Assembly (NCBI GenBank): GCA_033032175.1
Contig: CM065329.1
Location: 9,492,985 to 9,556,984 of the forward strand
Source of the DNA: Saturnia japonica
Lineage: Eukaryota > Arthropoda > Insecta > Lepidoptera > Saturniidae
Length of the DNA: 64,000 bases
Direction: 5' to 3'
The notes under the pieces are model-generated. The model had not been told where the DNA came from. It searched no databases and saw only the letters and a list, made by a program, of their open reading frames with translations. Below, in pieces: positions 1,572-46,516 of the stretch. Numbering within the stretch: position 1 is the stretch's first letter; each line of letters opens with the position of its first letter. Made by a program: the position numbers and the translations under genes.

Positions 1572-1573
1572 GT

Positions 1574-12173: not shown

Positions 12174-13861
12174 CTAAGATGAATGTAGAGCAATAAAGCA
12201 AGGTGTCATACATACCGTTTTCTCACAACCCACACAGTAGAAACGAATCAGTTTTTTGCAAATGACGCATGCCCGTCTTTTACGGCTGTTTTTGCTGGGT
12301 AAAAACTGGTACTCAGCTAGATGGTGTTTGATTTCGATACGTTCTACTGGGGTTGTATTAGAATCAGACAATTTGTTGCTGTGGTGTTGTAGTATAGTCT
12401 CTATTAATTTAATTCTAAAAGAACGGTGTGTAATAGAAGAAGAAGTAGACTGCTTAAATAAAATGTAGGCGTTTAATACAGACACGTTAAGGAGCCTACG
12501 GAATAGTTTTTTATACCATATCCGTGTGAGTTTCCTTTCAATGGGGAACATTGCCAGCATTTGGTCTTTTTTATCTACTCCCCCCATCATAATGTTGTAG
12601 TCTTGAACTACTGACGGTTTTAGTGTCGAATTGACCATGTTGGTGGTATTACCATGGTATGTAGAGATCATCGCCACTCGGTTCCTATCTCTCCATACTA
12701 TCAAATCGACATCACCAGATGTGAATCCGGTGATCTGGCCTGGCTGCATATTTGCCTTGGTAAGGGCGTTCAGTTCTTGTGGCACAAACTGGCGATTGGT
12801 CCTCAAAGTGCCAACACAATCAATACCTAGAGTTTTTAACTTTCTTGCAAGAGCTGGGGAATTATAAAAGTTGTCCATCCATAACGTGTAGCCCTTGTGC
12901 TCAAGACCATGAATTAGTCTTAAAACAATTGCCGGCGTATAAGCGTCTAAGGGGTCCAACTGCTGTGACATAGGCCCGGCATTTTTATGAGAGTGAACCT
13001 CAAACCGCCACAAGTAACCTGTTTGCGATTCACAAAGCTCATACGTTTTAATGCCCAATGAGGCGGCTTTGTTCGGAATAAATTGATTGATGTTCAACCA
13101 ACCTTTCCACTGCAGCAATGATTCGTCTAGCGCTATATTTTGGTTCATATTGTATAGTGATGAAAATTTACTGTTAAGGTGCTGTATTACTGGCTTAATT
13201 TTAAATAATTTCGCCTCGGAATTGTCAAGATTTTGCTGGCACATGTCTCTGTTGTCGTTAAAATGCAAACATGTGTTCAACAGTTGAAACCGTTTCAGAG
13301 ACATGTGCAACCGAAATCCTGGCGTAGCAAATATGTTACAGTTGGCACCCCAATATTCTTCAACCTTGCTTTTAACGACGACGCCCATTGCAAGCAAGAT
13401 TGAAAAATATACATATAATTCGTCAACACACGTATCGCGCCAGTCATTAATGCGGCTTGCAGCAGCGAGTGTGGAGCTAGCAAGCATTTGGAGTGCCAAC
13501 TGCTGTGCATATTTGTTGGTCTCCGAGGCGATGTGTTCCATTATTTGTCGATCCCATATAGCTATAAAAGCATTATATGGGTTGGCATGTGGAACTGTCG
13601 AACCGACATTAGTATTGCAAAACGTTTCCCTCCTCGACTCAGCTGAAAGCGGGGAATTGGGATAACGTGTCCATGTGAAATCGTATAAGTTAGTTGGCTG
13701 GTACATATCTGTGTTATCAGAGACAGACTCAACCGGTTCTGGGACAATATCTTCTGAATCCAATGGGGTTGGCAGCAGGGCTTGGGTCGTCCTGGAGATA
13801 TTATTAAAAATGTCAGATTGTTCCTCCTCCTCCTCCTCGTTTTCACTTTCTATTCCACTTC
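12174..13861 (-). CDS. Exon 7: piggyBac transposase domain (DDE_Tnp_1_7-like)
   Basis: The exon encodes about 562 aa. Its first part is acidic (a Glu run). It then has the piggyBac core with IALDESLLQWKG, GYTLWMDNFYNSP and YNIMMGGVDKKDQML, whose Asp residues correspond to the catalytic triad of known piggyBac transposases (spacing 84 and 100; about 78 and 101 in the moth founder). The C-terminus has a Cys-rich finger (CVICKK..RFYCVGC...C...C). No stop or frameshift is present. Upstream of the exon the sequence reads TTTAATC.. and an acceptor AG, not a clear piggyBac terminal repeat with TTAA. So it reads as a host exon rather than a fresh element, though an old element supplying this exon remains possible. 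Confidence 0.9.
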
Positions 13862-16800
13862 CTGTTTAATCAAAGTAATATATTTATTTATACAATAACC
13901 ATCAGCATTCTGAAACAGTTGTATAACCACACATCGGAAAGTGTTTAACTTACCATTATTTACCAGTAACTCAACTTCATCATCATGAAGTGGTCTGCCT
14001 CCAGCTTTTGTTGGTTCAGCTAACTCAACATACCTGGAGAAAAAATAAACATAAATTTAACAAATACATATATGAATTACCTAGGTTTTAAAGCGATTTA
14101 GTTTATACCCTTGACCTTGCACGTGTTAAACTATTGACTGAGGAAAAAATGCATTTTTCCGGAATAAAAATTATCCTACGTTACTGTAGATTTCAAACTA
14201 ACTATATACTGTAATTTCATACCAATCGGTGCAGTAGTTTTAATGTGAAAGAGTAAAAAACCAACAAACACACTTTTGCAATTGTGATATTAGTAGGCAT
14301 ATTAAACTAAACAACTTACATTGCCGGGGATGGCGAATCCTCAGGATATAAACCGTCTCCTGCAAGTGATGGCCCTGGAGCTTCACCAACAGCAGAAGAA
14401 GCAAGAGACGACCAAACATCGAGCTGGCTTGTGTTCGGCCAGGAAGCTGTATATAAACTGGTGTAAAGGAATAACAACATAAGTTTTTACCGAAATATTA
14501 GTAAATACATACACTAACAAAGTTTAATACTTACGGGTTCCAACTGCGCCTTTTTTTGTTAGTCAAGGGTTGCTCCAAACGAGAAGCGATAGGCCAATCG
14601 CCTGTATTACTGATATAGGGCCTAAAACATTATAATTAATCTTTAATACTAGAAAAATAGAAATGAAAAACTTTTAAACTAATAAAACAAAAATTGCATG
14701 TCAATAGCGGAGGGTGTTTTATTGGCTTGTCCGATGCTATCCCGGCCACTCTGCTGATGGAGAATTCACCTTGCACGTCCACCTCTTCCACAACTTCCAT
14801 GACCAACAACAACCCCACTGCCTCTGCCGTCAAGAGTCAGAATCCTTCCACGACCAGTTCGAGGCCCTCGCACTCTTAAGACGAGCTCTTACGCTAATTA
14901 GGAATTAAAATTGTTAAAATAAAATTATATTAAACATAAAACCGAACACTGTTACTGAAAAAACAGTCTTTTTGTTCTTTATTGGTCCAAAGTGTGGCGC
15001 CAATTCCATTCTCGTCGTACCTTTAATTAAGCCAAGTCTTGTTTGTTTTGTCACCTAATTTTAACTACATACAGTATTTCAATAAACTTTAAAATTACTA
15101 TCGAGGTATAATTTCTACAAAAATATCAACTATAAAAAAACACAATGAAGTTAATAGTGATATCAGATATTATCATCATTAGAAGGAATATAAAAATCTT
15201 TACTAAATATCAACAATATTAATTAACTTGTAATTCTTTCATCCATACTTGCACAACTGTAATGATCTAGACAATTATATGTAGGTCGACCATTTACCTT
15301 TCCCGCGATAACATTTGTTTGTATTTTAAGGGTTTTAAGTTCAACTTTTTTGTGAATTGACAGATTGTAACAAATTTAAACTTTTATTACATTAATAATA
15401 ATTACTTATATTATAGATATTAATTACAATCCTAGTGTAAATATAGCTACTTTATTACAAGGAAGAATAATCTCGACATGATGTTTCAGTGGCATGTTGA
15501 GTTGATTTAGGAATATGACAAAATATTTCACCACCCAGCATTTCATTTCACAATGCCAGTCACCGCCATTTTGAAATCCGCTGATGGGTACTCACCTATT
15601 TGTTCTTCTTGCATTGGTCTCGAATTGGACTTCTTCAGTAGTTACCAGTACATTATTACATGTCCTTGTGTCCTCAGTATTATCCAATATTCCTTGCACT
15701 TCTAAACACTTAATTTTTTTTATTGAACGATGATTTTTATCCTCATCTTCTTCCCTTATATTTAACGACAATACAGTCTCCGTATTTTCAGGTTTTACTC
15801 TTTGTGAGTTTATTTTTAACATCTCCTCATCCTAGAAACGACAATAATAATTTAACTCATCAGTAACTTACAGCCAAATCAGCCCGGAGACGTTATTAAG
15901 TTCGAAGTAGTGTACGGAAGTACACGTGTAGCTACTAGCTCGCGCAAACTGTTTTATCCAGTTTACTACAAACGTAAAAACGTCTCAAAGCTGATTCACC
16001 TATAAGTTGTTACAAACTAAGTGTTGTTAAAACATCGTTTTTTTTAGACTGTCGATAGTAATCGATTAATTATCAATTGTTTTAGTAGCGTTAGCAAGCT
16101 CATCGTAATCTACATAATGGAGTTATGCGATAAAATAAAAATATATACAATTTAAAGGAAAAAAACTTTAAAGTTACACTTTGTGTTTGTATATTTTAGT
16201 CACGTATATTACAGAATTTAATGTTTTAATTTAGCTTCAAGTATCGTAACCGAATTAGAATTATTTTCATCATCACTATTACAATTTATAATTAATTCAA
16301 AATCAAAATATTTCATTTATTATAACTCTTATTTTGGCGCGTTTAGTAGAGGGTAACAAATAGACTTAGGTACGCTTGCTACTTATTACGAAAGTGCGAC
16401 ATTTTTTATTATGTAAAAATAAAATTAAACTTTATATTAAGTCCTTACATATAAAATTGGCGTTTTATATGGAAAAAGAAAAACGAAAAAAATATTATGA
16501 ACTTATATATTTGATCAATCGAACGATATTACCATTAACCAACCGTTATTATCTATGAAGTTTTCCATTTTGTAAAAAGAACGATATCAAAGAAAAATCA
16601 AATAGTGCTAAAACAAATGAATCACTAAATTCGAAAGACAAATACACAAGCCTAAATTTGAAATAAATTTGGATTTGGAATTCCTAACCAAACGCCAGAT
16701 ATTTGAGATCAAAGTGGCCAGTTCAACAAAACACCAATTTCTTAAGTAGGAACCTAATATAAATAAAAACTATTTTAATCAAATAAAAATAACCAATTTT

Positions 16801-19245
16801 CTTAACCCACCTTCGTGAGATGAAACTACTATACCAGTTAATGAGAGGAGAACTCTTGATCAGAAGTGAGATGCAAAATGACATTAGTACTAATTACTTA
16901 CTTCAAAAACTAGTTTACTACTGAAGCTAGATTGAGGATATCCATCCTCAGGAAATTCCTTCTTCAATTTTTCCAACACATTATCCTTACTGTCATAGCA
17001 GTTTCCATACTCTTGTGACTCTAAGTAACCAGATGGATACTGGAATATATTGAGTGGTTCAGATGAAATATTTTTAGATAAAATTAATATATTCCTAGAG
17101 TCTAGGGCATCGGCCGAAGTTATCTATTAAAACATTTAAGAAGAAATTTTATACTATGCTGTAAATTCAACAAACAATCAGTAAAACTATGCAGCTCTTC
17201 AATATATCTATACTAACTGTGCCTGCGCTTGCGCACGTGTGGACTACAGAGTGCCGTCGAACGAGCACACGCGCGAATCGCTCCCAATTATTTTAAAGAC
17301 AAAAATGCTTATTGTGGGTGAACCTTAGAAGATAAACATATGCTCCAGCTGACTTTTTTGTTGGCCTTTTTATGATCTCCAATTCTTTAGTGCATTAACT
17401 TGATATATCTCTATGGTTTAATCAGTGTATGCCATTTATGCGACTGAATTGATTCACCGTACCAGTTTATTTTATTTGCATGGAATCCTAATTATTTTTC
17501 TAACAGTGAAAGCCTGGTCAAAAGCAGTCTAACTGTATCGGGGATTACTTTGAACAAACAAACAGTAAGACATATAATTTTTTTTTAAATTGGTATTATC
17601 TTTTAAGTACCGAATAAACTTTCATATGCCTTATGTAAAAAATTTATTACACAAATTTGATGGATCTGTGGAGTAAATAAAATGGATGAGATCAGAAATT
17701 AGTATATTAGGGGAAGTCATAAAATAGCACCAGTCATAGAGAAGTTGAGGGGTTATAGGCTAGCGTGGTGTGGGCATGTCATGAGGAGGGATAAAAGTCA
17801 TCATGTATGTAGAAGAAGAATGTTAAGTAGATTTTCTCGTTTTTAGCACGGTAGTTTATACACGTGTTAGTGAGATTGGTTAAAAAATTTTTTTTTTCCT
17901 TTTTCGGCTATAATTATTAATCTAAAACCGGGTTATTTTGGCGGTGGATAGTGAATTATTTGTACAAAACAGTAAGTGCATTTATCAACAACACTCGGTA
18001 ACTCCATTGCTTTATACAATGTTGTTACGACCTCCTGATCCCCCGATCGTTTTGATCGAATTGGCTCCAATCTAACTTCTATTCCTACTGCTACGGCAAC
18101 TAAAAGATCCCTTGTAGACACAGAAACGACTAATGTTTCAAAAAATAACCATAATAAACCTATCTTCAGCCTCACTATCGATTCACACTATTTATTTGCA
18201 CCCTGCATTAAACAACTCTATTAAAATCTATGATAATTTTGACAAAGGTCCCTTTATAGTGCATGTTTCCCCTTTGGAGCTTGATTTGGCAGCGGGTTTA
18301 TCTATAAGACCGATTAAATATGGCCAATTTTTAAATCATCATAAAATAGAAAATAGTTGTGGTAATGGAGTTAAGAGGGTGGGCAGAAATAAGATCTCTA
18401 TTGAATTTAAATCAGCAACTGATGCTAATAATTTCTTAGGAAAGTCTATTATCGCTCAAAATAAATATACTGCTATTATCCGTACTTATAATATAACTAT
18501 AATGGGCCTGATCCTAATTAATGAATTTATCCTAATTAACAAAATAATGCTTTAATTACATAGATATTTTGTACATAATTTGTTGTGTATATATTCATTA
18601 ACTTTGGGTATATTGATAAATTGGTTTGGATACTACATGCTAAAATTATTCTCTTTTGGACTTCTATCATTTATCAATCAGTCTGCTTCCTTTGTAACTC
18701 TATCTACCATAGATAGTGTACATTCATATCTACAGACATTGGCGAAATTGTGTTAATTACATATGGTGCCATAAATAAGAAGAATGTTAAGTATGAAGGT
18801 GTATGGATATATGAGTAAAGGAGGACCGAAGAAGGTGTGGATGGATTGTGTGAAGAATGATATGCACAGGTGTGAATAGTGAGATGATATTATATAGAGT
18901 TGTGTGGAAGAAGAAAACATGTTGTGTCGACTCTACTTATGTAAGATAAGGGTTAAGAAGAAGAACACCTTTAGCAGAAAGTTGTTATTTTGACATTATA
19001 AACACACTTAAATTCTATTTATTTGTATAGATTGAAAAATACATGTTCAGAGACAAGTAGGAGACACAGTCATAATAAAATAATATAAACAATACCATAT
19101 TGTTACTGCAAGGTGGTTCCTCATCTTTGCACTCTACTGTTTCATTTCTCAGTGTTGATGTAGACATTTGTAGATTCCTCTGTGCCTCTGGAACTGTGGT
19201 ACTCAATGTATCACAGATTGGTGCTAGACATTCCCTTCTGTCCAT
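12174..19245 (-). CDS. Seven-exon gene: zinc-finger-paralogue N-terminus fused to a piggyBac-type transposase
   Basis: Proposed exons on the minus strand are 19096-19245, 16902-17039, 15596-15831, 14535-14621, 14320-14457, 13954-14033 and 12174-13861. Each junction has GT-AG, phases are compatible, and the total of 2517 nt predicts 838 aa. Exons 1-3 align with exons 1-3 of the plus-strand gene at 38119-46516 (shared LAP.CDT, YDSKD.VL, ILDN.E, VLVT) with the same phases. Exons 4-6 are low-complexity and acidic, with PLHDDEVELL. Exon 7 is a DDE transposase. The start is the ATG of MDRRECLAP, matching MDSKEYLAP in the paralogue. Cell role is not known; a DNA-binding, chromatin or domesticated transposase role is inference. 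Introns hold LINE relics. Splicing is predicted, not observed. Confidence 0.78.
17213..17585 (+). repeat. Interspersed repeat of the AACTGTGCC(C/T)GCG family
   Basis: It aligns with 44745-45020 and 48645-49050. Shared blocks are CTGTGCC.GCG, TTTTAAAGACAA, TTAGAAGATA, CTATATCTC, GAATTGATTCACC, CAGTGAAAG and GGAACAAACAGACAG-like ends. This is a common lepidopteran repeat type, probably derived from an RTE LINE or SINE. The exact family is not known to me. Confidence 0.55.
17690..18960 (+). mobile_element. RTE-type LINE C-terminal relic, split by a nested insertion
   Basis: Translation of 17740-17810 gives EKLRGYRLAWCGHVMRRDKSH, and 18794-18955 gives GPKKVWMDCVKNDM and VWKKKTCC. Both are typical of the C-terminal tail of RTE-type LINE polymerases in insects. 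They are separated by the nested segment at 17830-18776. It is non-functional and lies in intron 1 of the piggyBac gene. Confidence 0.75.
17830..18776 (+). mobile_element. Nested fragment with LINE Gag-like ORF, 17-bp target duplication
   Basis: The segment lies between exact direct repeats AAGAAGAATGTTAAGTA at 17813-17829 and 18777-18793. Near 18235-18520 it encodes GPFIVHVSP, KRVGRNKISIEF and SATDANNF, resembling the N-terminal region of Jockey-type ORF1 (Gag-like) proteins, with a stop soon after. It holds no RT, so it is an internally deleted or truncated copy. A poly-A tail is not obvious. Confidence 0.65.
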
Positions 19246-19419
19246 TGTTCTGTTTGTTTCAACCAATTCTTCTAATTCATTTGGTTATTTAAGTAACTTG
19301 AATTTATAAATGAGTTTATTATTGGAATGTGTTTATTTAAAGTTACAGCTGAAATTAAATGAGATTAAAAATGTTTTGAATTGATAATATTTGTTCTTCA
19401 AGGTTTTTATCACTATTGA

Positions 19420-19900: not shown

Positions 19901-19959
19901 GGCAGTTTTCTTTCAAATTAACCCGAGTGATTGAGAAGATATCTCGCGATAAAGTTAGG

Positions 19960-24429: not shown

Positions 24430-24720
24430 TTGTGTATTGTACTTCTTTTTCCTAACTTGGCATCCGATCCTCTTTAATGAAGACCATTACTGCCATTATC
24501 GAGTGAATTGTAGTGTCATGTGCTATGACGAGGATGAGTTAGTATCCTAACAAGATGGTAGCTCACTTGTTAGAACTTCCTAGGAAGATTTTTTGGGGAC
24601 TCAGAATTAATGCTTTCAGCTTATATTTATAAGCCACATAAACCTAGGTTTTTGACCCTAAATTATGTAATATTGTTGGCGTTTTGCGTGATATAGTTTG
24701 GTTTTTGTGCTTATTTTAAA
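24430..24720 (+). repeat. Dispersed repeat R24, copy 2 with inverted terminal part
   Basis: Bases 24440-24650 run in the same sense as the other copies (CCTAACTTGGCATCCGATCC, GAAGACCATTACTGCCATTA). The end, about 24650-24720, reads as the reverse complement of the corresponding end in copies 1 and 3 (CCTAAATTATGTAATATTG, GGCGTTTTGCGTGATATAG). Confidence 0.6.
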
Positions 24721-25344
24721 AATATTTAAAGGGTTCTGCGTACATAATATGAAACTGGTCATTGGAATCAAGTCGGACGCTTAAATGGCTTACGTTGATT
24801 AAACCATAACAAATATATATCATATTAATGTACTGCATAATTGTAAAGATTAAAAAGATGCCCGTAGGCCTGATCGAAGACATTCTGTAATAACGCGAGC
24901 GCCGCCGCGGGCACAGCTAGTTCTGAATAACATTGAACGTCTTTAGGAGCCTACGCTGCGACACTTCGTACAAAATATATAATGAAAGAATACAGCATTT
25001 GGCATCGCAAGAGTATAATAATTTCTTTTTTTTAATGTAATTGATACCTAATATTTCAAATTTAAAGTTTTCTACGCAACGCGCTGACAATACTTTGTTT
25101 CAATAATTCAACGACAAACACTTGCAAAAGCTACAACACAAAACGTAATCCGTTCATTCATTTTAAAAAACAATCACTTAAATTTTAATGGAAATTTAAC
25201 AAATGGAGAGCTAATGATGACTTTCTTGCAACTGACTGTCAGTGAATGATAGTGATGTCTGAAAGTGACACCCTTTCTGTGCATCCACTAAATTGTTAAT
25301 ATTATACCTAATAATAAATTAACATTTGTTTAATTAAAAATAAG

Positions 25345-29577: not shown

Positions 29578-31953
29578 ACTCAAGCCGAGAGGTTTAAACA
29601 TCTCCTTTTTTAAGGCGCGGAACTTATATCCGCAGCGTGATCTCGTCGCGACTTATCTTAAAGATCACCAAATAGACGTTCTCTTAGTACAGGAAACGCT
29701 CTTAAAGCGTGCTAAACGCAATCCGAGTATCGCAAACTATAACATCGTCAGAAATGACCGCGGCGGCCGCGGGGCGGCCCGTCATTTAACTAAGTCCGTT
29801 CCTTGGGTGATGCCATAGATCTGCCACCTTACCAATTGGAAGTACCGTGTGTAGACTAGAATTACCGATATCCGTCCATAACGATAGTACGTCACCTCAC
29901 CAGAAAGTACCTCTCGAGGTGTAGAGAAGGAACCTTTCTTGCATTCGGTCATTATCGCAGTGTGAACAGTGTCACACCCTAACAATTGGAGATGTACCTC
30001 AATGGGGTTATTCTCGAAGGGAGGTAGATGTTAAATTTGATCATAGCGCTCCCTCTTACGACGCATTAAGCACTTACATTCAATGTGACATAGCCCTCCG
30101 AAAAATCGGCGCTTCGGTACCCTTCATTCGGGTTGTACACGACTCGACTCCGATTGCCTTACGCCCGGTCATCCCCAGCCCAACAGTGACAAGCCGCACT
30201 CAGCAATTGGATAGACTTGCAAAATTAAAAACCTCGCAATAGGAGTCCCGCCCAGTCTTAAGGGCCGAACGTGGGAGTCAGTTGCGCGTAACCACGACCC
30301 GCAGTTGAACCACAATCTGCATCGGAGAGGCCTCGAGAGGTTCGAAGCGGCAAACGATTCCTTTGAATACTACTTCACGAACAAGTTTGACGGAGAAGAA
30401 TCGCACTCTGCAATCTGTGACGTCTTGTATCACATATCGCTACTTCAAGAGCGGTTAAAGCCCGTATAACCGAGCTCAAAAGTCACAGATGGGACACCTT
30501 AGTCGAAGGGCTAAGGCCGTCACATCTGACTTATTGGAAATAGCCCAGCCCTTAAAATAGACACCCAACCTCGCATGCCCCCCCTCGAAAGGGGTCCCGG
30601 CACTACACCCGCTTTCGATACCATCGACAAGGCGGAGTGCCTTGCCGCTTGCTTGGAGAGCCAGTGCTCCCCGAACAGCGTCAAGAACACCGACCGAGTC
30701 AGAGACATCGAAGCCCGCGTGGAGGAGCTGAATAAGCCCCCGGCATCAGAATCCCTGTCCCCAGTCACTTCTGAGGAAATCTCTGCCATTCTCAAAAGCC
30801 TTAAGCTCAGAAAGTCACCAGGTCCCGACGGTATCAGGAACGAAGTACTCAAACTTCTTCCCGATCACCTCATAGCTCTATTGGTCTGCATATTCAATGT
30901 AGCCATAGCCAACTGCCATTTTCCAGCCGCCTGGAAAACGGCCATTGTCATAGGTATTCACAAGCCCGGCAAGAGCACGTCGCTTCCCGACAGCTACCGC
31001 CCTATCAGTCTCCTAAATACCCTAGGTAAAATCTATGAGCGGATCCTCCTGAACCGTCTCAAATCCGTAATAGAGGAGAAAAACCTCTACCCGCCTGAGC
31101 AATTCGGTTTTCGTGCTAGACATTCTTGCACTCATCAAGTGCACCGCCTCACGGAGCACATTCTGTTTAACTTTTCCGAGTTATCCAAACCCCGTCGCAC
31201 GCTGGCAGTCTTTTTCGACGTAGCCAAGGCCTTTGATAAGGTCTGGCACGAAGGATTAGTCTATAAGCTGTACTCCCACGAAGTCCCCGATAGATTAGTT
31301 AAAATCATCCGCGATTACCTCAAAGACCGCACCTTTCGCTACAGAGTGGAAGGTGAACTATCCACACCCCATCCCATACGCTCAGGCGTCCCCCAAGGTT
31401 CCATCCTGGCACCTAGCCTCTTCAATCTGTACGTCAGTGACCTACCAAAACTTCAAGAGAAAGTTGAAGTAGGTCTATACGCTGACGATACAGTCATATA
31501 CTCCTCTCAAAGGCAAACGAGAAACCTCAAATGTAGGATCCAAAGGGCCGTGACCACTCTCGGGAAGTGGTTTAACGACTGGCGAATAGCCATAAACCCC
31601 ACGAAGAGCGCAGCGGTGCTCTTCGACCAAACCGCCACAAAGATACCGCAAAAACTCAAGGACAATCCCCTTGAACTCTTCGGTAATCCGATCCCCTGGG
31701 AAAAGGCGACCAAATATCTAGGTGTAACCCTAGACAGTAGACTCTCCTTTATACGCTACATCAATCTGGTTAGGAAAAGGGCCTCCTGGACCCTCGCCCG
31801 ACTACATCCTCTGTTATGTGCTGCAAGCAAAATGTCCACGAGACACAAGCTTACGCTCTACAAGATGTGTATCCGTCCGATCATGACATATAGCTGCGTT
31901 GCGTTCGCACATATGCCAAGTTATAACTGGGAACGCTTACAAGCCATCCAGAA

Positions 31954-32065
31954 GTACCGCTACTCGACGCTAGATGTTGCTTTATAAGATATAAAGATAT
32001 TTTGTATTACAATTATTATTTGCAAAGCAGCTATAAATTCGATTCTTTTGGAATAGGGATGTCAG
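31954..32065. repeat. Dispersed repeat (inverted match to 48000-48132)
   Basis: The reverse complement (ACATCCCTATTCC, TATAGCTGCTTTGCAAATAA, TGTAATACAAA, ACATCTAGCGTCGAGTAGCG) matches 48000-48132. Its end coincides exactly with the point where the first RT copy breaks, so it may be a real insertion into the LINE. The next 850 bp (to 32920) contain a duplicated phrase TATTTGGTGACC.CGA but no gene I can name. Confidence 0.55.
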
Positions 32066-32919
32066 ACACTTTGTTACGAGAATTAGGTTATTCGTTTAAT
32101 TAAGATATTATTAATGAAACAAAGAAAAAATTCTTTATTTTGGAATAAAATAAAATATAAGTATGTTTTAAAGGCAAATTAACGGCTTTTTACTAAAGGC
32201 ATATTATGTGGCATTCATAATTTTTATTGAGTTTTGGCAAAATATTTTAAGAAAAAGAAAGACAATTTATCATTTGGTTTTGAATCTATATATATTCCAA
32301 TTAGCAATTGTGATATGGGGCAAACCACCCTTATTTGGTGACCCCGAAGACTACGCAACCTGGGAGCTCATCGTGACCACTGTGGCGCTATAGGCTATTA
32401 TTTGGTGACCGCGACGATTGCGCAACCTGGGAGCCTCGGAGCGTATTATCGCATTTGTCACCACTTTTGTGTGATGACTCAAGACAGTGTTCTGGGTACC
32501 ATTATTGGAGTTGCTAACTTAATAATTATTGTGGCCCTACTTCGCGCTACTGAAATGGCGATCACTCTTCATATCGTGGAGCTTCTACACCGGACGCAGC
32601 TTCAAACTGTGCAGGCATATCCAGCGTGACATCCTAGACTGATACGTGATGTCTCTATATGGAAGGTCGCAGCTTGCTGCAACACCGCGCCGCGCTTGTC
32701 TGCTGCCTGAGATTTTGTCCTGCTTCGAATAGCGGAACGTGTGTCATCTCTTACTGCATGACATCGCATTGCATTGCATGTTATTGACAAGACACGTAAC
32801 AACATGACGTTGTTCACTTCCCTCGTCGCACTCTATCTGCTCATGTTTTCTCATCCGTATCTTGTGTATCACCTCGGCCTGCTCCCTTGCACTCAGATCA
32901 AACTATACAACCATATCAG

Positions 32920-33580
32920 TTTTTAAGCTATTGCATAGCTTCTATCGCGGGCCTTGGGCGTGGAGACCGAATCCAGAAATTCCATAACGAAAATAACCTA
33001 ACACCCCCCACTCCGACCGGCACAGCGGTGAAACTTTGACTAGGGTGTCGCGACAGGCTCGACGGGAACACGGACTCCTCTCACCGCTAGATGGCGTTGT
33101 AAAATATGTTTGATAAAAGAACGACATACATAGAGTTATAAAACCTACATAATTTTATTTGTTCATTATAAGTTATAAAATAATATATATGTATATATAT
33201 AAATAGTTTTTTTTTTTACATTTTGATATATTTTAATATGCAAGAATAGCAATTTTTGTCAAATTTGAGTATTATTTCGAAAGAGAAATTACTTACAGCA
33301 TAAATTTTCATAACTAAAACTAAATAAAAGCAAATTTTTGGTCAGCTGGCTTTTATTTTACTTATTTCAGATTCGGACGCCAACGACTGGATATACATAG
33401 AAAATGATTTATTTTATTATTAATAAATTATTAGGAGTATGATAAAATTATAATATTGTGGTTTTGCAACTCTATACAATTCGACATTCAGACGCATTTT
33501 CCAGGACCGGATCTAGAATATAATTTCTTTACGAAAAATTAGTACTTAGATCTGTATGATAATATAATAAATAGATGCAA
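32920..33580 (-). repeat. Dispersed repeat X, inverted copy of 59440-60085
   Basis: The reverse complement of this segment follows 59440-60085 almost end to end: CATACAGATCTAAGTACTAA, TCCAGTCGTTGGCGTCCGAA, CAAACATATTTTACAACGCC, CGGTCGGAGTGGGG, GGAATTTCTGGATTCGGTCT. It lacks the 24-bp micro-insertion present in the other copy and has only one copy of its 8-bp target. Class unknown; the CCATCTAGCGG motif is common in insect MITEs. Confidence 0.75.
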
Positions 33581-33810
33581 GTCCTTAACAGACAAAAACC
33601 TTAAAATTTTCTTGGTAGGTACAGTATACCACCGCTTTATGTTGGCGCAGCATTAAGCCATTCACTGTGTATATAATAACCTGTGTTTACCATTTATATT
33701 ACAAGTATGATTGACTCTAGTAAAGTGAATAAGGTTCGTTATGAAATTAAAATACAAAAATATTTAATTCATCTAATATATAACAATAACTTTGCACCAC
33801 GGTTTCACCT

Positions 33811-34123
<313 letters not shown>

Positions 34124-35755
34124 GAGGAGCTGAATAAGCCCCCGGCATCAGAATCCCTGTCCCCAGTCACTTCTGAGGAAATCTCTGCCATTCTCAAAAG
34201 CCTTAAGCTCAGAAAGTCACCAGGTCCCGACGGTATCAGGAACGAAGTACTCAAACTTCTTCCCGATCACCTCATAGCTCTATTGGTCTGCATATTCAAT
34301 GTAGCCATAGCCAACTGCCATTTTCCAGCCGCCTGGAAAACGGCCATTGTCATAGGTATTCACAAGCCCGGCAAGAGCACGTCGCTTCCCGACAGCTACC
34401 GCCCTATCAGTCTCCTAAATACCCTAGGTAAAATCTATGAGCGGATCCTCCTGAACCGTCTCAAATCCGTAATAGAGGAGAAAAACCTCTACCCGCCTGA
34501 GCAATTCGGTTTTCGTGCTAGACATTCTTGCACTCATCAAGTGCACCGCCTCACGGAGCACATTCTGTTTAACTTTTCCGAGTTATCCAAACCCCGTCGC
34601 ACGCTGGCAGTCTTTTTCGACGTAGCCAAGGCCTTTGATAAGGTCTGGCACGAAGGATTAGTCTATAAGCTGTACTCCCACGAAGTCCCCGATAGATTAG
34701 TTAAAATCATCCGCGATTACCTCAAAGACCGCACCTTTCGCTACAGAGTGGAAGGTGAACTATCCACACCCCATCCCATACGCTCAGGCGTCCCCCAAGG
34801 TTCCATCCTGGCACCTAGCCTCTTCAATCTGTACGTCAGTGACCTACCAAAACTTCAAGAGAAAGTTGAAGTAGGTCTATACGCTGACGATACAGTCATA
34901 TACTCCTCTCAAAGGCAAACGAGAAACCTCAAATGTAGGATCCAAAGGGCCGTGACCACTCTCGGGAAGTGGTTTAACGACTGGCGAATAGCCATAAACC
35001 CCACGAAGAGCGCAGCGGTGCTCTTCGACCAAACCGCCACAAAGATACCGCAAAAACTCAAGGACAATCCCCTTGAACTCTTCGGTAATCCGATCCCCTG
35101 GGAAAAGGCGACCAAATATCTAGGTGTAACCCTAGACAGTAGACTCTCCTTTATACGCTACATCAATCTGGTTAGGAAAAGGGCCTCCTGGACCCTCGCC
35201 CGACTACATCCTCTGTTATGTGCTGCAAGCAAAATGTCCACGAGACACAAGCTTACGCTCTACAAGATGTGTATCCGTCCGATCATGACATATAGCTGCG
35301 TTGCGTTCGCACATATGCCAAGTTATAACTGGGAACGCTTACAAGCCATCCAGAACAAGTTTCTTCACCGCCTTACCGGTGCCCCCTGGTTTGTTCGTAT
35401 GGAGGATCTCCATAGAGATATGGACCTTCCCTCGATACATGCATACGCCAAACACCTTTCTCGCTCGTATTTCGACACCGCGTCGAACCACGCGAACCCC
35501 TTAATAAAAGCGGCAGCTTCTTATGTTCCCGACCCCAACGCCTGCCGGAGAAAACGCCGGCCGCGTAATATATTCACTGACCCGCCCGACCAAACCGAAA
35601 AAGCTAACGCGTTCTACGCCGACACCGTCTCTCCAAACAGAGCGTGCCACCGCCCACGCCCGCGTAACCACCGTTCTCTCCGCAGAGGACGGGCGGTCAA
35701 CTTCGCTCCCGCACACCCGTCACGTCCACCCTCTCTAGCGGCAACCCAAGCCTAG

Positions 35756-36740: not shown

Positions 36741-36879
36741 AGCATGTATAGATTTCTACTGATTTTCATTTTAGTTTACCAATTTTTGTCACTTAATTTA
36801 CCATTTATGTAAAATTTAGGTTGGCAACACTGGTTAATGGTTCCTGGCATAGTTGCAAAAGTTCCCGATTTATTAAGAG

Positions 36880-37165: not shown

Positions 37166-38118
37166 ATATAAAAACCACAACATGTCACTTCAAGATCCCG
37201 CCAAAAAAGAACCACGATACACGTCAATTTTAGGATTTCAAATTGTTATCTTCTGGTTCTGATACATACACACCGAGTATTTTCCTCTCATTTCATTTCA
37301 AATCATTGAGTAAACTCCTTCTTTCTTCTTCTTTATATAATGGCAGCGTGTTTGTAAACACAATGTCACGTATATAGAACCATAAACTAAGGAGATTTAT
37401 CGTAAACTATGACCAGATCTTTATTAAATTAAAATGTATTCGGCCCGGGCTATTCTTATACAAAACACAAAGACAAAACAACACAATATACATTATAATA
37501 TAATCTAAACCAGAGATAAATAACAATTAAACCTACAACTTCAGTAAATCAACCATAATTGAATAACTCAATTATTAATTAACTTAAAATCGCCCTCCAA
37601 TTCTATGTACTTTACGCCCATAGGGTGCTCGAGAGTGTGTTGTTATATGCTGTAATTTAATATATATAAACTGTAAATATATATGTGTATGAAAATTATT
37701 GAAATGATTACAAAATATAATTATTTATGTACATTTATTTATAATAAAATGTTACCGAACGTATGACAAAGTAACCGTAGGTAAATCGAAACGTTCAATA
37801 GCGTGAATTCCCTCTGGTTATTGGTCTATGGTGAATTCTATATAATCTGTGGTAGGTATTGACAAATATTGCAGAAATAATCGTTTTCTATTATATTTTT
37901 TTCTCAAAAACTACGGGTTTCCGCATGTTGAAACTTTGTGTATATGCTTATAATAATGTAATCTTTCTGTAAAAGGAATTTCATCCTCCTACTCGATGGA
38001 CGTCAATGGAAAGCTGAGCCCGAAAATATTCTCAAAAACCAAAATTATTAATAACTTTATTTCAAAAATAAATACATAATCAGTTCATTAGAAAGACGAG
38101 ATTGAAACAAATAGAATT

Positions 38119-41100
38119 ATGGATAGTAAGGAATATCTAGCACCCAGCTGTGATACAGTGAGTACCAAAGCTCCAGAGGTACAGTGGAATCTAAGGATGT
38201 GTATCCCCACACTGAAAGAAGAAACAGTAGAGTGCTTATATGAGGAAGAATCGGCTTGCAGTGACAATATAAACATGGTATTGTATAATAATATATTATT
38301 CACAGTATTAATGTGTCTGTATTATTCATAGGGTTGCAATTGGCCCATTCTAGCAGATATATTGGGACTGTCTTCATCCTTACATCCTCTGTCCCAACAT
38401 CCCGACAAAACACTATAACGTATCAATTTTCCATGCAGTGATAGCTTTTCAAAAACTTCCAGTAAAACTACTTTGCCACACTGTCAAAGGAGGAAAATTA
38501 TTTGGAGATTTTAAGCAATGGCTGCTCTTAACTATACAAATCCTGAAAGCAAATTCCAAATGCTCAAACTCTGCATATATTTGTTTATGATAGGTACCTG
38601 ATCACAAGACCACTGTGGAATGTATATTTTTAATAATGAACTAGTGGACTGATGAAACAAATCGCCTGCTGCTGAAGTCTGTACAGTTAATATTATAGTG
38701 CTAATAAATTACTAAAATATGGAGTTTTATAAACTTGTATGAATTGAGCATAAATTACTTAGAAAATTTGTCTCCTTGCAACCCTACTCATGCAAAGTCA
38801 CAAAGGTTGGCTTCACAAGCCAAATCAGAGCTCATTAACGTTGGAGTTGAAATAGTTGCTGTGGCTGAAATCAGACAGGATTTCATCATCATTTTTCAAC
38901 TTGCAGTCTTGCATAGAAGAATGGCATATCTGACTCAGTGATGGACTTGGAATTAGAGCAAACCGGCCACTTACAATGTCAGTACTTGGATTCATTATAG
39001 ATAAATAAGTTTAGAACTATTATTGAGATTTCATATCAACTAATTTTGATTTGATAGCTACTCACATGTATGCATCCTAGCCATTTTACTGCTCAATTGA
39101 TTTTTCACTCATTATTATTTATTTATTTGATGTCTGATGATGCTTTATTTAATTAATTGGGAGGGTATCATCAATTCAAACATTTTTTAACAGATGATCA
39201 GCTATAAATTTGTAAGTTATGAACTGATTTGGATAATTCTTTTTTTTTTAAGTTGCATTTTAATTTCATTGGCATTGGACCTTCAACTATGAAAATACAC
39301 TAGGAAATTCTTCATCATCACTGAAGTCGGTTTTATTATTTGTTAAAAATTGTATTGGAGTAAATGGTTTATTCAAGAAGAATATAATTTTGTCTGTAAA
39401 TGTTTAAAATTTTGTTCCAGTATCCATCTGCACCCTCAGAGCCATCTAAGTTTATGAATTACTATGACAGTAAGGATTATGTGTTGGATCAACTGAAGAT
39501 GGAATTCCATGAGAATGAATGTCCTCAATCACGTCATGTCAGTATGAATAGTAAAATAACTTTTGATGTGAGTAATACTAAATTTTTCTGTTTATTCGTT
39601 TTGCACTACACTTTTAACCATGAGTATAGTTTGAGCCTTTGTAGTCATTGGCTTAAGCAGATATACTTACTGCATAATTTAATCCCGTAGGAATTATGAG
39701 TTTTTTTTCTGAAACTTATATATATATGGATATGATATGGATGAATACTTAACCTTGTATTGAACAAGCATTTCAAACTCCAAAAGTATGTGTCCCTTCC
39801 TTTCTCATAAGGTATTCTCTGCAATAAATAGATTAAAAAGATGTTTGTTATAGTGCCCATGGCTCTTTAAGGGCTTGTGTAGACTGCACCGTGGACGCGC
39901 TGGAGTCGCGCTTTTGTGCATCTATACTGCCGCAGCCACGCCGCCGCTTTATTTGTCTATCACTGGTACATTTTTAGTAATATATTGTTAGCCACTAACA
40001 TCATACATGTAGGCATACCTAAATATATGATGAATTTAACTAAAAAAAAGGATTTAGCGTATGCACACTACATATATGTAAGGAAATGGCTAAATAAAAA
40101 TAAGAAGTCAAATAGACACTTATGGGTTCATCCTATTTTGATGCAAAGACATGGTGGATTCCGTACACTTTATAAAGATCTATGTTACTCTAAGTTTTGT
40201 GATTATCTTCGGATGCATATCAAAATTTTCGAAAAATTGTTAGATACTAGCTGACCTGCGCAACTTCGTCTGCGTCACACAAGAGAGAGAGAGAGAGCGT
40301 TAGAAAGAGTGGGACGTAGGCACCTATAATTCGCATAATAAAAATGCGCGCGCTGTTCTTGATCTTTATTTTGCTGCGGAGTTATTTTTAAACTGCTATA
40401 TTTTCTAAGGGATTCATTGAAATCAATTGATGTAAAGGGCAATTTTGTTTAAAATTAAATACTTGTGATGAATGAATGTATGTATGGTATGTACGTATGT
40501 ATTACGATAAGGATTAATACCATGTTTATAAAAACACCTTCACAAATGATGCATTATTTTAGAATAAATGTAAAAAGGTTACATTGAGTCAACCTTAAAA
40601 TATAGATATAGGCTATCGCGAACTTTTTTTTAGAACTTTTAAAGAGAAACAGTTCCATCGCACATGATTGTTACGTAACTTTAACCATTTACGCAGTGCA
40701 CGGAATAGAAGTTCTCAAAATGAATCAATTTTCCCCGTTTTTGCAACATTTTTCATTGATGCTCCGCTCCTATTGGTCGTAGTGTGATTTTATATAGTCT
40801 ATAGCCTTCCTAGATAAATGGGCTATACAACACTAAAATAATTTATCTATTCGAACCAGTAGGTACTGAGATTAGTGCGTTCAACCATTAGTATATATAT
40901 CTATTATATGCAAACACTCAATTTTTTATTTATTAAAATTCAACATGTTCATTATTCCTACACCTAAAATTTTCATGGTAAGCAATGTATTACGAAAAAT
41001 GTACAGTGATGTAGTAATCATGCGGCGGCGGCGGCGCCGTTTACACGATCCCTAAGACTCCATGTTGGACATCTGTTCATGCATTAAATGGTTCTAGAGA

Positions 41101-44100
41101 ATTTGGGATAAACTGACAGGTTATATTATGTACACACATCTGAGTTAGTGCTTTGCGGCACTCATGTAATGAGATGAAATTGTTTAGAAGCCAGTATTGC
41201 AGCCATTCGTATCTGATTGAATTTGAATTAGATGGTTCTTTGCCTTCCATGATTATAACCTGAGCTGCTATAAATATTGTTACAAGAGAAAAACTTTTTT
41301 TTTCTATTGCATAAATCATTTATTACTTTAATGTGTGTTAGTTTATACATTAATATAATAACAATCAAAATATATGAAGCTCATTCAGACATGATCGCCA
41401 TTGGCTTTAATACAGTCCTATAAACGTTGAGGTCAGTAATGGAAACACGCACTTTCTTCATGGAGAAATTCTTCACTGCCAAATTTATGGATTGTTTTAG
41501 GGACTCCAAATTATCATGGCGTTTAGAGCATGCCATACTCTCTAAAACAGACCGATAAGATCATAATCCAGGGGATTAAGATCGGAACTAGATGACGGCC
41601 AGTCTTCAAGCTCTGATGAAAGTCCGAAACATTCGTTTCCAACCACGCTTGAGTGGATTGAGCTTTATGACCCGATACTGAGTCTTGCTCAAAGGACCAT
41701 TCTTGGTTATGGAACATGGTGTTTTTAAGAGGCTCAACCACCTTCTCAAGAATTGTATCTTGATACACTTGTGCCGATGTTTTGATACCTTTTTCACAAA
41801 AATATGGCCCAGTCACTCCTTGATAGCTAATCACCTCCACCAAACCATCACTGAAGTTGGATAATGTCCACGTTGTACTCTGCTGACTAATTGGGAAGCT
41901 TCTATAGAGCTTCGAGCATAAACTCGGTCATTCTGCTTGTTAAAACATTGCTCAATAGTAAAAAATTTCTCGTCAGTAAATTTCATTTTTCTATTGACCT
42001 CCCTTTGCGTACCGCTTAAGAAGTTTTTTTGATTTTACAACCCTATTTATTTTTAAATTATCAGTTAAATAATGACCAATGCATCTCTTATAGGCTGCAA
42101 GTCCTAAGTCATCGTTTAAAATACGCGACATGGTTCTAGGTGCTATAATTCATTTCTCGAGATAAAATTCTTTTACTTTCGGACAGGATTTCTTCTAATT
42201 CTTTCCTACACTACTTTGATCGCATTTTTTGTACGAATACTACGTGGACGGCCAGATCTTTTTCTGACACAAACAGAGGAGGTTATCATTGTACCTATCA
42301 ATAGCCCGGTATACAAACATTCGACTAATACCAAGAGGATGTACAGTTTTAAAAATTGCATTTGGCTCCCTACCTGCTTTGTGTAATGCTATCACAGCAA
42401 TTCGGTTCTCTTTATCACCCCCACTCCATTTTAATATCACAAAAATATTTAATACCGTTTGGTGCGAAAATGAGAAAACACAATGAATATTCCTAGAAGA
42501 ATAACAGATTTCAAATTTGAATACAATATTGTGTTTTTTTTTTAAATGTAACAGTATTTATGGCCAGACTAAATAATATTATATTCTGCCTTAATGATAG
42601 TGTAGCGGCGGATAAAGATAGGAAAATGAGTGGATACCTCGTTTTCTTCGGCGCTGGTTCTGATGATAGCGGTTGAGGCAACTTGTATATATGCACGTTT
42701 TAATGTCACGCGCGCGTGGTGCTTCAGTGGACAGCGGCAGACTCACTGAATTTTTGAGGTAGGGACGAGAGCGGGGTGAAATGTGGGGTGGGAATGTAGG
42801 GTATATTTAAAAGGAATCGAAGAAATATATATGATAGATAAAAGAGAAGGTTAGAATATATAATATAATGGTGTGTATGTATACTCGGCGCAACCAGATA
42901 GTGTTATGGAAACGCGGAGCCATAAATCAATGCTTAAATCTTCTGAGAAGACACCCGTACTGAACCTGCAGTTGTTTTAGAGCCATCTATGAAGATTATG
43001 AGTACTTTCACAATGAGGCTCTTGTTGTGTTCCTCATACAATTGTATTTTGTATTGAAAACAAATTGTACTGGTATTTTATCGCCGATAGCACCTGTAAA
43101 TGGAATATCCTCCATGACTACATGTAGTATGAAAGTGTGGGGTGTAGGACTATTTTTCAATAAGCTTAAAATCTTCAGGCGAACTGCCGATGCTGTTGCC
43201 TCATGTTGTGTTAATAGGTATAAGGATGGCAGGTTGAGCATGGTCTCAAAAGCAATAGAGGAGGTGGTTTCATGAATTCTGTAATTGCCATGTCTGCCTT
43301 TGCAATCGTTTTAATGTAGATTTCCTTGTTTGTTAAGACCTCCTCTATTATACTTGTTGCCATGTTTAACGCAGATTCTGTTGTTTCGCCAAGAATTATA
43401 GGCTTGTTGGTTTTTATGTAACATTAGCATCCTGTCACATATCCTCTCCAGCGTTTTGAGGAGAAATGTTGTGAGGATCATGGGTTTGAAAGATTTAAGA
43501 ATTATGTAGTTACTCACTTTCCTCCATTTTAGCAGTATGTATTTGTTTGTTAACACTACACTACACTGTGGTCGTACTTACAGCGTCTGTTGTTTTCACC
43601 GCTCTGTGGTTGTAACCCTATTGCAGATTTCTTTGTTTTATCGTTTCTTGATTTCGTTCGGTTGTCTAAAAGAGAACTGTCCTTCATTGACACATGACTC
43701 GTTTAATGAATATGAAATCACGGCTGATTGATGACCACAAGTACCTTACTGCGTCTCGCGAGTCGGAGATAATCACAGAGTGCGAGGTAAGAGATAAATA
43801 GCTTTAAGTATCAGAATTTTTAAAGTCTTTGTTTTGGTCACAGATTTTAATTATTTATTTGTACGTAGTTGGTAACAAGTTTAATACCGGAAAGTTTAAA
43901 TTATTATTTTTATTTTTAGAATATGGAATTATCAAAATTTAGAGACAAACAAGAAATAAAACATGAAAATTCCGAGGATCAAGAAGAAAATGTGGATAAA
44001 ATGTACCAGGTTACTATAAAAACAGAGAGGTTATTAGAGCAAGATATATTGGATAATGCTGAAGCGATTACCATACATTATGATGTCCTGGTGACTCCTC

Positions 44101-46516
44101 AAAAAGTTCGATGCAAGTTATGTGGTAGAATATTCAAAAATAGGTGAATACCTGACAAATTACTCATAGTTAATGACATACTGACATACACTATACTATA
44201 GAAATCATGAATTTATTACCTAAATCTCTTTAGAGTACAGCAAACATAGATAAATCCTATAAACGAAGTAAGAACGAATATTTATTATAAAGTGTGCATT
44301 TATTTAGGGAAAAGTTCTTACATTACAAATATGGTGGTATTAAGATATTTTACTTTTAATTATATTGTGTGTACGACACACATTTATTCTATAATAGCTT
44401 GACACATTGACGGTAGGTACTGTCCCTAATCCCAACGAAACAGTGACCCCCGAGATATCGCAATCGCTCGACAGTCGCCGCTTGCACGCCGTCCTGCATA
44501 AATTTAAACTGAATATGCACAGGCTGATACCAAAACGCGACGCGCAAAAGCGATTCACTCTGACGGATTTTTCACCGCTTGCATGGTGGTTGCGACCCAG
44601 TCGAAAATCGTTAGTCGTCGGTTTGTACGCAAAGAAACTTTAAAATCTTAATCGCCTGTGCCGTCACACCACTATAAAGTAAGATTAAATACAATTAATA
44701 AAGGCATCATTTATAATCATAATTATATTAAAATAATTTTTACTGTGTACTAACTGTGCCCGCGGTCCATTTAGCGTGGTCTACTGAATGTCAGTACTGT
44801 GGTGACCCCACATCCACCCACGAAGCAGGCGACCAGCCCGTTATATCAAAGACAATGATGCTTTTTATTATTTGCGTGGAACCCTAATGCATTTTCTAAA
44901 ATTAAAGTGGACTAAATTGCTCTTTATAATATTAGCTATCTGCCAGTGAAAGTCCCGTCATAATCGGGCCAACCGTTTCTGAGAATACCTGGAACAAACA
45001 GACAGACAGTTTTTTTTTAAAGTACCGTTATATCCTTTCATATGCATTTAGTAAAAAGCTGTTATTTTACATTACAAAAAGTCACTTCAATTTTATTAGT
45101 ATAAGATACCATCACGCCTGTATCCCCGACGGGCTAGGCAGAGGTGCACTAATGTACACCCACAGTTTGCCGGCGGGTATGATTTTTTTTAGATCCCATG
45201 TAATAATTGCCATTAATCGGGCACAAAGCCAAACTCCGAGTTGCTACTGAGAATTTCATAGTAAAACCCAATAACACTGTGCTCGACCTAGGAATTGAAC
45301 CTGGGACCTCGAGATACGACCGCTAGGTTAATGTATAATTTTATTGTACAGGTGGTTTGCCCGGCACACTGTAATGCAATTCAACAAGCTTTAGACCTAG
45401 TGGGAATTGCAGCTAAAGTTGTCTTAGTTTTAACTGTACATCCTGACTTATAAAACATTAGAAACAATATATTATCATTCATTATTATATTTTAACATTT
45501 CCAGTTTCAATTTATTAATGCACAATAATGAACATATAAAAATTGAAATAAACACATTAAGGGATAATGAAATGAATGAGTCAAACAAGTGCCAATATGG
45601 CGACAGAGTTTTTAATAATAGTGATAATATGCTTACACGAGTCGGTGATGTTCACAGCAAGATAAAAGCTAAAGGCAAATTATGCGGAAAACAATTAGCC
45701 TTCTCCCTGCACCCCGATGGTAACATTAATAACAAATTTACTGGTAAAGAGGATGGGAAAATGAGATATAAATGTGACTCGTGCGAGCGTGTCTGTAAAA
45801 GCAAATATATTTTAACAATGCATATAAAAAGGACTCATTATGATTATGGGAGAATGTTTGGTTGTTGGTGCGGGAAACAGTTTCGTACACCGATACACTT
45901 ACGTGTTCATATGAGGCGGCAGCATGATGGTAAAATGAAAGATATAAATAACTATAAAGTTCAATGTGACGCTTGCCAAAAAATATTCAAAACCAAGTTC
46001 TACTTAGAAAGGCATATAAAAAAAGTTCATCATGATTACGGAAGAATGTTTGAATGTTGGTGCGGAAAACAGTTCCGTACACCAATGCTTTTGTCTGACC
46101 ACAAGAGGACCCAACATGGTGCTAAAAAGGTATACAGATGTGAATACTGCAAGGTTGTATTTAATTTGAAGTGCAGTTTAACAGAGCATATGATGAGAGT
46201 TCATTATGATTACGGGAAAAAGTTTGATTGTTGGTGCGGGAAACAGTTCCGTGCACCGATACACTTAAGTCAGCATATGAGACGGCAGCATGATGGCAAA
46301 ATGAACGATAGAAATAACGACAAAGTTCAATGTGATATTTGCCAAAAAGAATTAAAAACCAAACACTATTTAAAAAAGCATATAAAAAAAAATCATTATG
46401 ATTATGGGAGAACGTTTGAATGTCGGTGCGGAAAACAGTTCCGTACACCGATGAGCTTAAGTCAGCATATGAGGCGGCAGCATGGTGCCAAAGTGAACGA
46501 TAAAAACTCATTGTGA
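38119..46516 (+). CDS. Four-exon C2H2 zinc-finger gene, paralogue of the piggyBac-fusion gene
   Basis: Proposed exons are 38119-38277, 39421-39567, 43920-44143 and 45505-46516, all with GT-AG borders; 1542 nt predict 513 aa. Exons 1-3 align with those of the minus-strand gene at 19245-15596. Intron 3 splits a finger: exon 3 ends VRCKLCGRIFKN and exon 4 begins FNLLMHNNEH, giving C-x2-C-x12-H-x3-H on joining, which supports the splice. Exon 4 adds nine more fingers, four of them with an unusual C-x-C pair (CWCGKQFRTP). Family knowledge suggests a nuclear DNA-binding regulator; the target is unknown. AATAAA lies at 46552-46557. Introns 1 and 2 contain repeats, intron 2 several transposons. Start chosen by alignment with the paralogue. 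Confidence 0.82.
39871..41052 (+). mobile_element. PIF/Harbinger element remnant with TIRs and TAA duplication
   Basis: The ends are imperfect inverted repeats: GGGCTTGTGTAGACTGCACCG, and GGGATCGTGTAAACGGCGCCG read from the right (16 of 21 match). TAA flanks both sides (39868-39870 and 41053-41055), the Harbinger target rule. At 40080-40255 it encodes NRHLWVHPILMQRHGGFRTL, YKDLCYSKFCDYLRM, the N-terminus of a HARBI1-like nuclease. Helitron copy C interrupts it at 40247. The catalytic part is absent. Confidence 0.8.
40247..40902 (-). mobile_element. Non-autonomous Helitron-like element, copy C (nested)
   Basis: On the minus strand it contains GCGTTCAACC (reverse of GGTTGAACGC), CTAATCTCAGTACC, CCATTTATCTAGGAAGGC, GGAGCGGAGCATCAATGAAA and a GA/CT repeat. 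It ends GGTCAGCTAG followed by T. It aligns with copies A and B. It is inserted in the Harbinger element, so it is younger than that element. Confidence 0.75.
41370..42450 (-). pseudogene. mariner-family transposase relic
   Basis: The minus strand encodes an N-terminal helix-turn-helix (RIAVIALHKAGREPNAIFKT, ISRMFVYRAIDRYND near 42420-42290) and a catalytic part (SYQGVTGPYFCEKGIKTSAQ, QDTILEKVVEPLKNT, EWSFEQDSVSGHKA, TQAWLETNV). The last Asp motif appears as NPLDYDL in a shifted frame. This order and spacing fit mariner elements of the DD37D type. Several stops and shifts make it inactive. Terminal repeats were not located. It lies in intron 2 of the zinc-finger gene. Confidence 0.8.
42930..43556 (-). 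pseudogene. Degenerate LINE (RT and RNase H fragments)
   Basis: From right to left the minus strand gives SFKPMILTTFLLKTLERICD (RT fingers), then LNLPSLYLLTQHEATASAVR (post-RT region) and IIFIDGSKTTAGS (RNase H). The middle of RT is missing and frames change. It resembles R1/Jockey-type LINE ORF2. It sits in intron 2 of the zinc-finger gene. Confidence 0.65.
44745..45060 (+). repeat. Interspersed repeat of the CTGTGCCCGCGG family, copy 2
   Basis: Aligns with 48645-49050 and 17213-17585: ACTGTGCCCGCGGTCC, AAAGACAATGATGCTTT, AGCTATCTGCCAGTGAAAG, TCCCGTCATAATCGGGCCAA, GGAACAAACAGACAGACAG. It lies in intron 3 of the zinc-finger gene. Confidence 0.55.
45110..45345 (-). mobile_element. tRNA-derived SINE, partial
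   Basis: On the minus strand the right part reads AACCTAGCGGTC...CGAGGTCCCAGGTTCAATTCC, with a good Pol III B box (GGTTCAATTCC). The body contains CCTCTGCCTAGCCCGTCGGG, a motif I recognise from lepidopteran SINEs. The A box side is incomplete. Intron 3 of the zinc-finger gene. Confidence 0.55.
45505..46516 (+). CDS. Exon 4: tandem zinc fingers, alternating C-x2-C and C-x-C types
   Basis: After a 70-residue linker with poorly formed CC motifs the fingers run CDSC, CWC, CDAC, CWC, CEYC, CWC, CDIC and CRC, each followed by x12-H-x4-H. Even-numbered fingers share F(G/E/D)C(W/R)CGKQFR, then L..H.R.QH, whereas odd-numbered ones follow the ordinary KCD/QCD pattern. The array is therefore a repeated finger pair of about 55-60 residues. 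Linkers such as RTHYDYGRMF and VHHDYGRMF recur and are not the usual TGEKP. The exon ends with a stop at 46516. Confidence 0.85.

Follow-up and report, generated by a model that had tools for sequence, protein, structure and literature searches.

A head-to-head pair of C2H2 zinc-finger paralogues in Saturnia japonica, one of which may end in a piggyBac transposase

In the genome of the lepidopteran Saturnia japonica, a stretch of 64,000 nucleotides of contig CM065329.1 (assembly GCA_033032175.1, positions 9,492,985 to 9,556,984 of the forward strand), hereafter the window, carries two related genes arranged head to head, with 18.9 kb between their start codons. The plus-strand gene comprises four exons and encodes C2H2 zinc fingers, and the minus-strand model comprises seven exons, of which the first three are paralogous to those of the plus gene and the last encodes a piggyBac transposase. 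From the letters and their open reading frames (ORFs), a first-pass annotation had proposed that, after an inverted duplication, one copy exchanged its DNA-binding half for a captured transposase. All positions given below are those of the window, and splice scores were computed from general consensus weights, not trained on this genome. The features of the two genes are as follows.

19096..19245, minus strand: exon 1 of the minus model, 50 codons, ATG start (blastn to 38087-38300, 76.6%, E 1e-38)
16902..17039, minus strand: exon 2, 46 codons, donor GAA/GTAAGT (blastn to 39415-39576, 73.2%, E 9e-22)
15596..15831, minus strand: exon 3, 78 codons and 2 nucleotides (nt) (blastn to 43983-44152, 67.1%, E 1e-6)
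15613..15624, minus strand: FETN codons in place of the CKLC of the plus copy, half-finger relic (protein alignment)
14535..14621, minus strand: putative exon 4; the acceptor at 14621 is weak, and an alternative start at 14609 keeps the same frame with a higher score
14320..14457, minus strand: putative exon 5, donor AAT/GTAAGT 9.4, acceptor 9.8 (used by 7 of 15 splice paths among those listed)
13954..14033, minus strand: exon 6, acceptor 11.2 (used by 15 of 15 paths among those listed)
12174..13861, minus strand: exon 7, piggyBac transposase (DDE_Tnp_1_7, PF13843) in one large 3' exon of 1.69 kb
13125..13127, minus strand: first catalytic Asp, LDE, D247 of the ORF (aligned with piggyBat and 6x67)
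12873..12875, minus strand: second catalytic Asp, MDN, D331 (same alignment)
12573..12575, minus strand: third catalytic Asp, GVD, D431 (same alignment)
12183..12269, minus strand: C-terminal Cys-rich motif CxxC-CxxC-C-CxxxxH (read by eye)
38119..38277, plus strand: exon 1 of the plus gene (blastn and gene model)
39421..39567, plus strand: exon 2 of the plus gene (blastn and gene model)
43920..44143, plus strand: exon 3 of the plus gene, its 3' end coding for the CxxC part of a C2H2 finger split by the intron (blastn, Pfam)
45505..46516, plus strand: exon 4 of the plus gene, C2H2 zinc fingers (Pfam zf-C2H2)

Exons 1-3 of the two genes are truly homologous, far beyond chance, and this homology hardly extends outside the exons. 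The three exons pair by blastn where the first-pass annotation had aligned them (E 1e-38 to 1e-6), and global alignment places exons 1, 2 and 3 at 19.7, 14.1 and 9.8 standard deviations over shuffles, respectively (100 shuffles each). The equal phases it had reported are borne out, as all three exon pairs begin in phase 0 and exon 3 leaves two extra bases in both genes; besides, the exon lengths, compared without any alignment, differ between minus and plus by 9, 9 and 12 bases. The three splice borders quoted at the time are present in the sequence and both spliced frames are open as stated, over 838 amino acids (aa) in the seven exons of the minus model and over 513 aa in the plus gene. In other words, this pair of C2H2 paralogues has exons, phases and splice sites common to both copies. 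As regards the surroundings, seven flanks of 150 bases align globally just 0.4-3.2 standard deviations above shuffles, and the blastn homology overruns exon 1 by about 30 bases 5' of the ATG and about 20 bases past the exon end. With so little homology beyond the exon borders, an inverted duplication of the whole block is not visible, and it is suggested by the orientation of the two genes alone.

In the plus gene, the spliced protein exhibits eight zf-C2H2 stretches (Pfam, E up to 1 each), and a poly(A) signal (AATAAA at 46552) follows 36 nt 3' of the stop. The predicted gene model is supported by the position of its exon 3/4 junction inside a canonical C2H2 finger, CKLC ending exon 3 and H-x3-H beginning exon 4, and a finger match in Pfam (residues 166-185) crosses the junction. 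In the minus copy, both cysteines of this half-finger are gone (FETN vs. CKLC). The possibility of a zinc-finger exon hidden in the minus locus was considered and rejected, since tblastn with the plus finger exon as query found itself alone below E 1 and no second zinc-finger exon in the window; the fingers thus reside, within the window, in the plus copy of the pair and not in the minus copy. Likewise, Pfam returned no match at E up to 1 for the N-terminal 300 residues of the minus protein. The replacement of CKLC by FETN, together with the lack of a second zinc-finger exon in the window, indicates that the minus copy lost its fingers. A zinc-finger ancestor appears more parsimonious, because the reverse change would need a CxxC to arise exactly where a half-finger later joined. 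Regarding the scenario of an inverted duplication followed by a swap, the sequence comparison therefore supports a zinc-finger ancestor and a change in the minus copy, but the flanks show no duplication of the whole block.

Exon 7 encodes a transposase whose domain is complete, PF13843 being covered from position 1 to 349 of 349 (E 2.2e-84). Two distinct sequences from the PDB match it, namely piggyBat (9c0f, 2.2e-37) and 6x67 (entitled 'Transposase', 3.5e-23), which we take to be piggyBac of Trichoplusia ni. The DDD triad is complete in the exon 7 ORF, with D247, D331 and D431. In PMC8086355 (section 5), two kinds of Cys-rich domain are distinguished among piggyBac proteins, that of T. ni and a variant; read by eye, the motif of exon 7 resembles the variant order and not the T. 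ni order. As for terminal repeats, the best TTAA-anchored inverted repeats in three ranges inside the window matched at 10, 11 and 10 of 13 positions, which 71.5, 32 and 83% of 200 shuffles also reached, that is nothing beyond chance, and the terminal inverted repeats of 13-15 nt with TTAA by which a mobile element is recognized were not found for ends inside the window. A TTAA at about 15.03 kb was tried as an element end and rejected, as the adjoining 16 bases occur nowhere else in the window even with three mismatches allowed. No relatives were confirmed in viral contigs (transposase and finger queries), prokaryote genome contigs or phages. Past the transposase stop, a minisatellite begins after 13 bases (11078-12161, with a 58/116-base period and 18.6 copies of the 58-base unit). 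The divergence that the first-pass annotation had described after exon 3 holds for the fingers of the plus gene and for a full-length DDE_Tnp_1_7 transposase on the minus side, but the join between exon 3 and exon 4 could not be confirmed.

While its chances stand slightly below even, the best single reading is that the minus gene is a duplicated C2H2 gene which lost its zinc-finger exon and in which a resident piggyBac transposase is now the 3' terminal exon; a single fused gene is plausible from the layout of the sequence. In such a gene, the host promoter would drive exons 1-3, and the strong donor of exon 3 would be spliced onward, through two or three small intermediate exons, to the 1.69-kb exon of the transposase. 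The predicted product would combine the N-terminal tail of the zinc-finger family with a transposase whose DDD triad is intact and which brings a Cys-rich motif of its own. Provided that it is expressed, this protein would most likely bind DNA or act as a regulator while being immobile, with the transposase half possibly standing in for the lost fingers. The fused gene is favoured because exons 1-3 are paralogous with equal phases, the finger being split in the plus copy and its cysteines lost in the minus copy, and because the minus exon 3 donor is not only kept but stronger (TAG/GTGAGT, 10.3 vs. 7.0 in the plus copy), with no stop in minus exons 1-3 despite their divergence from the plus copy. 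It is further favoured because a whole transposase domain in one 3' exon behind upstream exons is the layout of PGBD1 and PGBD2, because the TTAA-anchored inverted repeats are at chance level, and because exons 4, 5 and 6 are jointly open in few shuffles, i.e. 0.65% of 2000 dinucleotide shuffles, a figure to be read with the fact that the exon borders had been picked for openness; the other two forward frames of exon 6 hold 7 and 2 stops. The capture of a transposase, as proposed in the first-pass annotation, is in this respect compatible with the layout (upstream exons, one large 3' exon and no repeats beyond chance), but the junction is ambiguous and a stand-alone start is present.

Several observations, given here and in the next paragraph, tell against a fused gene. 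When splice paths were enumerated across 15595-13861, with the exon 7 acceptor fixed and no more than three exons, each of 25-320 bases, allowed in between, the open paths into exon 7 numbered 17 for entry in phase 0 (best score 56.0), 27 for phase 1 (57.0) and 23 for phase 2 (58.3), and the path of the first-pass annotation scored 55.4. With all three phases reaching exon 7 at a similar score, the join of 15596 to 14621 is unproven and without specific support, and for the same reason the open spliced frame carries almost no weight for it. The acceptor of exon 4 (3.2) is the weakest of the four, compared with 9.8, 11.2 and 6.3, and exon 4 itself is uncertain, a cassette exon candidate at 14823-14770 being part of the best phase-2 path. 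In addition, the first AATAAA or ATTAAA past the transposase stop comes only after 1.2 kb, beyond the minisatellite (AATAAA at 10949), and domesticated piggyBac genes have themselves gained introns in their 5' untranslated regions and coding parts (PMC3257199), so that upstream introns do not demand host exons. This intron gain also suits the strongest rival, in which the transposase belongs to an old element or to a piggyBac-derived gene in its own right, with 5' exons and a start codon separate from those of the host (most simply the exon 5/6 ATG, MYVELAEPTKAGG...DDEVELL), and lies by chance 3' of leftover exons 1-3 on the same strand, an account to be taken seriously and yet held to be doubtful. 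The ATG concerned crosses the exon 5/6 junction at residue 250 and could open a stand-alone frame of 589 aa. An acidic, DDE-like stretch, as found here in exon 6, is the usual start region of a piggyBac protein, and the match with this start adds to the case, as do the independence of the splice paths of similar score from the phase of exon 3, the abundance of transposons in the window and a candidate private first exon of five codons in intron 3 (15314-15298, donor 9.4). Yet private first exons, taken as an ATG with a phase-2 donor, number 4, 1 and 1 in this 974-bp intron at thresholds of 3, 5 and 7, no more than the 0-8, 0-2 and 0-1 found in seven control stretches, so that intron 3 shows no excess; nor do terminal repeats exceed chance, and exons 4 and 5 share an open frame with exon 6. 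Another private first exon, in a Gly/Arg-rich frame at about 14890-14770 (donor 8.5), was rejected, as inspection by eye showed no ATG in its frame and an open frame on the opposite strand too; as the cassette exon at 14823-14770 it remains a candidate. Of note, the plus strand opposite intron 3 shows by eye a Ser/Thr/Asn-rich stretch (14702-14875) followed by an AATAAA.

Rather than fused, the minus copy could be a truncated or decaying zinc-finger paralogue, in which reading continues from exon 3 into the intron and meets a stop immediately (AAT AGG TGA), giving about 175 aa or nothing, the transposase being unrelated; this is considered improbable. The half-finger cysteines are gone, as decay would have it, and an in-frame TGA lies right past the exon 3 border, but this TGA is also present in the plus copy, which looks functional. 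Between minus and plus exons 1-3, nonsynonymous divergence (dN) amounts to 0.344 and synonymous divergence (dS) to 0.468 on a protein-guided codon alignment, which by its design opens gaps only in multiples of three; the ratio is 0.735 (bootstrap 0.48-1.19) and reaches 1 or more in 9.4% of 1000 bootstrap replicates. As the differences are in addition spread evenly over the three codon positions (49, 52 and 45 of 168), the constraint on the amino acids is weak, which may point to a disordered tail or to relaxed selection. Decay is in turn difficult to reconcile with the strong exon 3 donor and with a frame and splice sites kept in spite of such divergence. In simulations with about 0.18 unconstrained substitutions per site, i.e. 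half of the divergence, only 10 and 18 of 1000 runs, from two possible ancestors, stayed free of stops, and the minus copy has probably been coding for most of its own history. A recent loss of function has more room, because at 0.08 substitutions per site 96 and 110 of 1000 runs were still stop-free. Finally, the locus could yield occasional exon 3-transposase transcripts by chimeric readthrough, with a product that is not selected; the plentiful splice-like sites that separate exon 3 from exon 7 (21 donors and 37 acceptors above loose cut-offs) would allow it, and this explanation is given hardly any credence.

Besides the two genes, the window hosts a variety of other elements. Two Pao/BEL-type retrotransposon polyproteins are open from stop to stop, at 1559-7108 on the plus strand (1849 codons) and 53583-57338 on the minus strand (1251 codons). 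Between the paralogues, long interspersed nuclear element (LINE) sequence occupies 27880-35755 on the plus strand, with PRE_C2HC in the frame at 27880-29577 and RVT_1 in that at 33680-35755; the LINE reverse-transcriptase frame found at 30530-31987 recurs directly after long single-base runs at 33805-34266, which are possibly an assembly artefact. A hAT dimerisation fragment is found at 50714-51307 on the plus strand (Dimer_Tnp_hAT, E 4.7e-5). A repeat is common to intron 1 of the minus gene (17279-17503) and to 48707-48935, with 79% over 232 columns and a weaker match at 24718-24857, and intron 2 of the plus gene contains, at about 41300-42500 on the minus strand, what resembles by eye an old mariner-type transposase remnant. 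Rfam returned no match in the whole window at gathering scores.

Host-transposase fusions are best known in vertebrates. PGBD1 associates a piggyBac transposase with a SCAN domain, which is common at the N termini of C2H2 proteins (PMC6015446), and both PGBD1 and PGBD2 have several upstream exons and the transposase in one 3' exon (PMC2268245). The minus gene, if fused, would resemble PGBD1 in linking the N-terminal part of a C2H2-type protein to piggyBac, with upstream host exons and one large 3' exon (PMC2268245, PMC6015446, PMC9499001), but its protein has no SCAN or KRAB in the Pfam search of its first 300 residues, a zinc-finger sister copy is present in the same window, and the fusion is here predicted from sequence. 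A piggyBac 'exon trap' has been proposed, the T. ni transposase tolerating N-terminal fusions, and the CSB-PGBD3 fusion has been described (PMC2268245). The likeness with the latter would lie in a transposase that closes the gene as its 3' terminal exon, downstream of host exons and matching the phase of their donor; in contrast, PGBD3 keeps its terminal repeats and TTAA, of which none beyond chance were found here, and the full-length host protein is still made there, whereas no zinc-finger exon is left to the minus gene in the window (PMC2268245). PGBD5 is also a piggyBac-derived gene with introns, but these are inside the transposase domain (PMC3902484) and not upstream of it as in the present case. 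With T. ni piggyBac and insect piggyBac-like elements, exon 7 shares DDE_Tnp_1_7 and the DDD triad, to which a Cys-rich C terminus may be added by eye, and it differs in the terminal repeats, none being detected here, in the introns upstream and in the Cys-rich order read by eye, CxxC-CxxC-C-CxxxxH (PMC8086355). A capture by F-box genes is also reported (PMC12062965). In insects, no piggyBac-zinc-finger fusion was described in the titles or abstract openings among the matches listed, and two surveys of animal piggyBac elements contain neither 'intron' nor the term for fusion that was looked for (PMC12732532, PMC10813416).

If the minus gene is indeed fused, it would be an insect counterpart of PGBD1 or CSB-PGBD3, i.e. 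of a 3' exon trap of a kind known from mammals. Beyond this, it is conceivable, and on balance unlikely, that an insect independently evolved a PGBD1-type protein by swapping its fingers for a triad-intact piggyBac transposase, with the unswapped sister in the same 64-kb window, so that two proteins would share a tail, read DNA by different halves and possibly compete for the same partners. The intact DDD triad leaves DNA cutting by the product possible. Should the fusion be real, the state before the exchange (plus copy, split finger intact) would lie beside the state after it (minus copy, finger lost, transposase downstream), and the order of steps in the swapping of a DNA-binding half would become testable.

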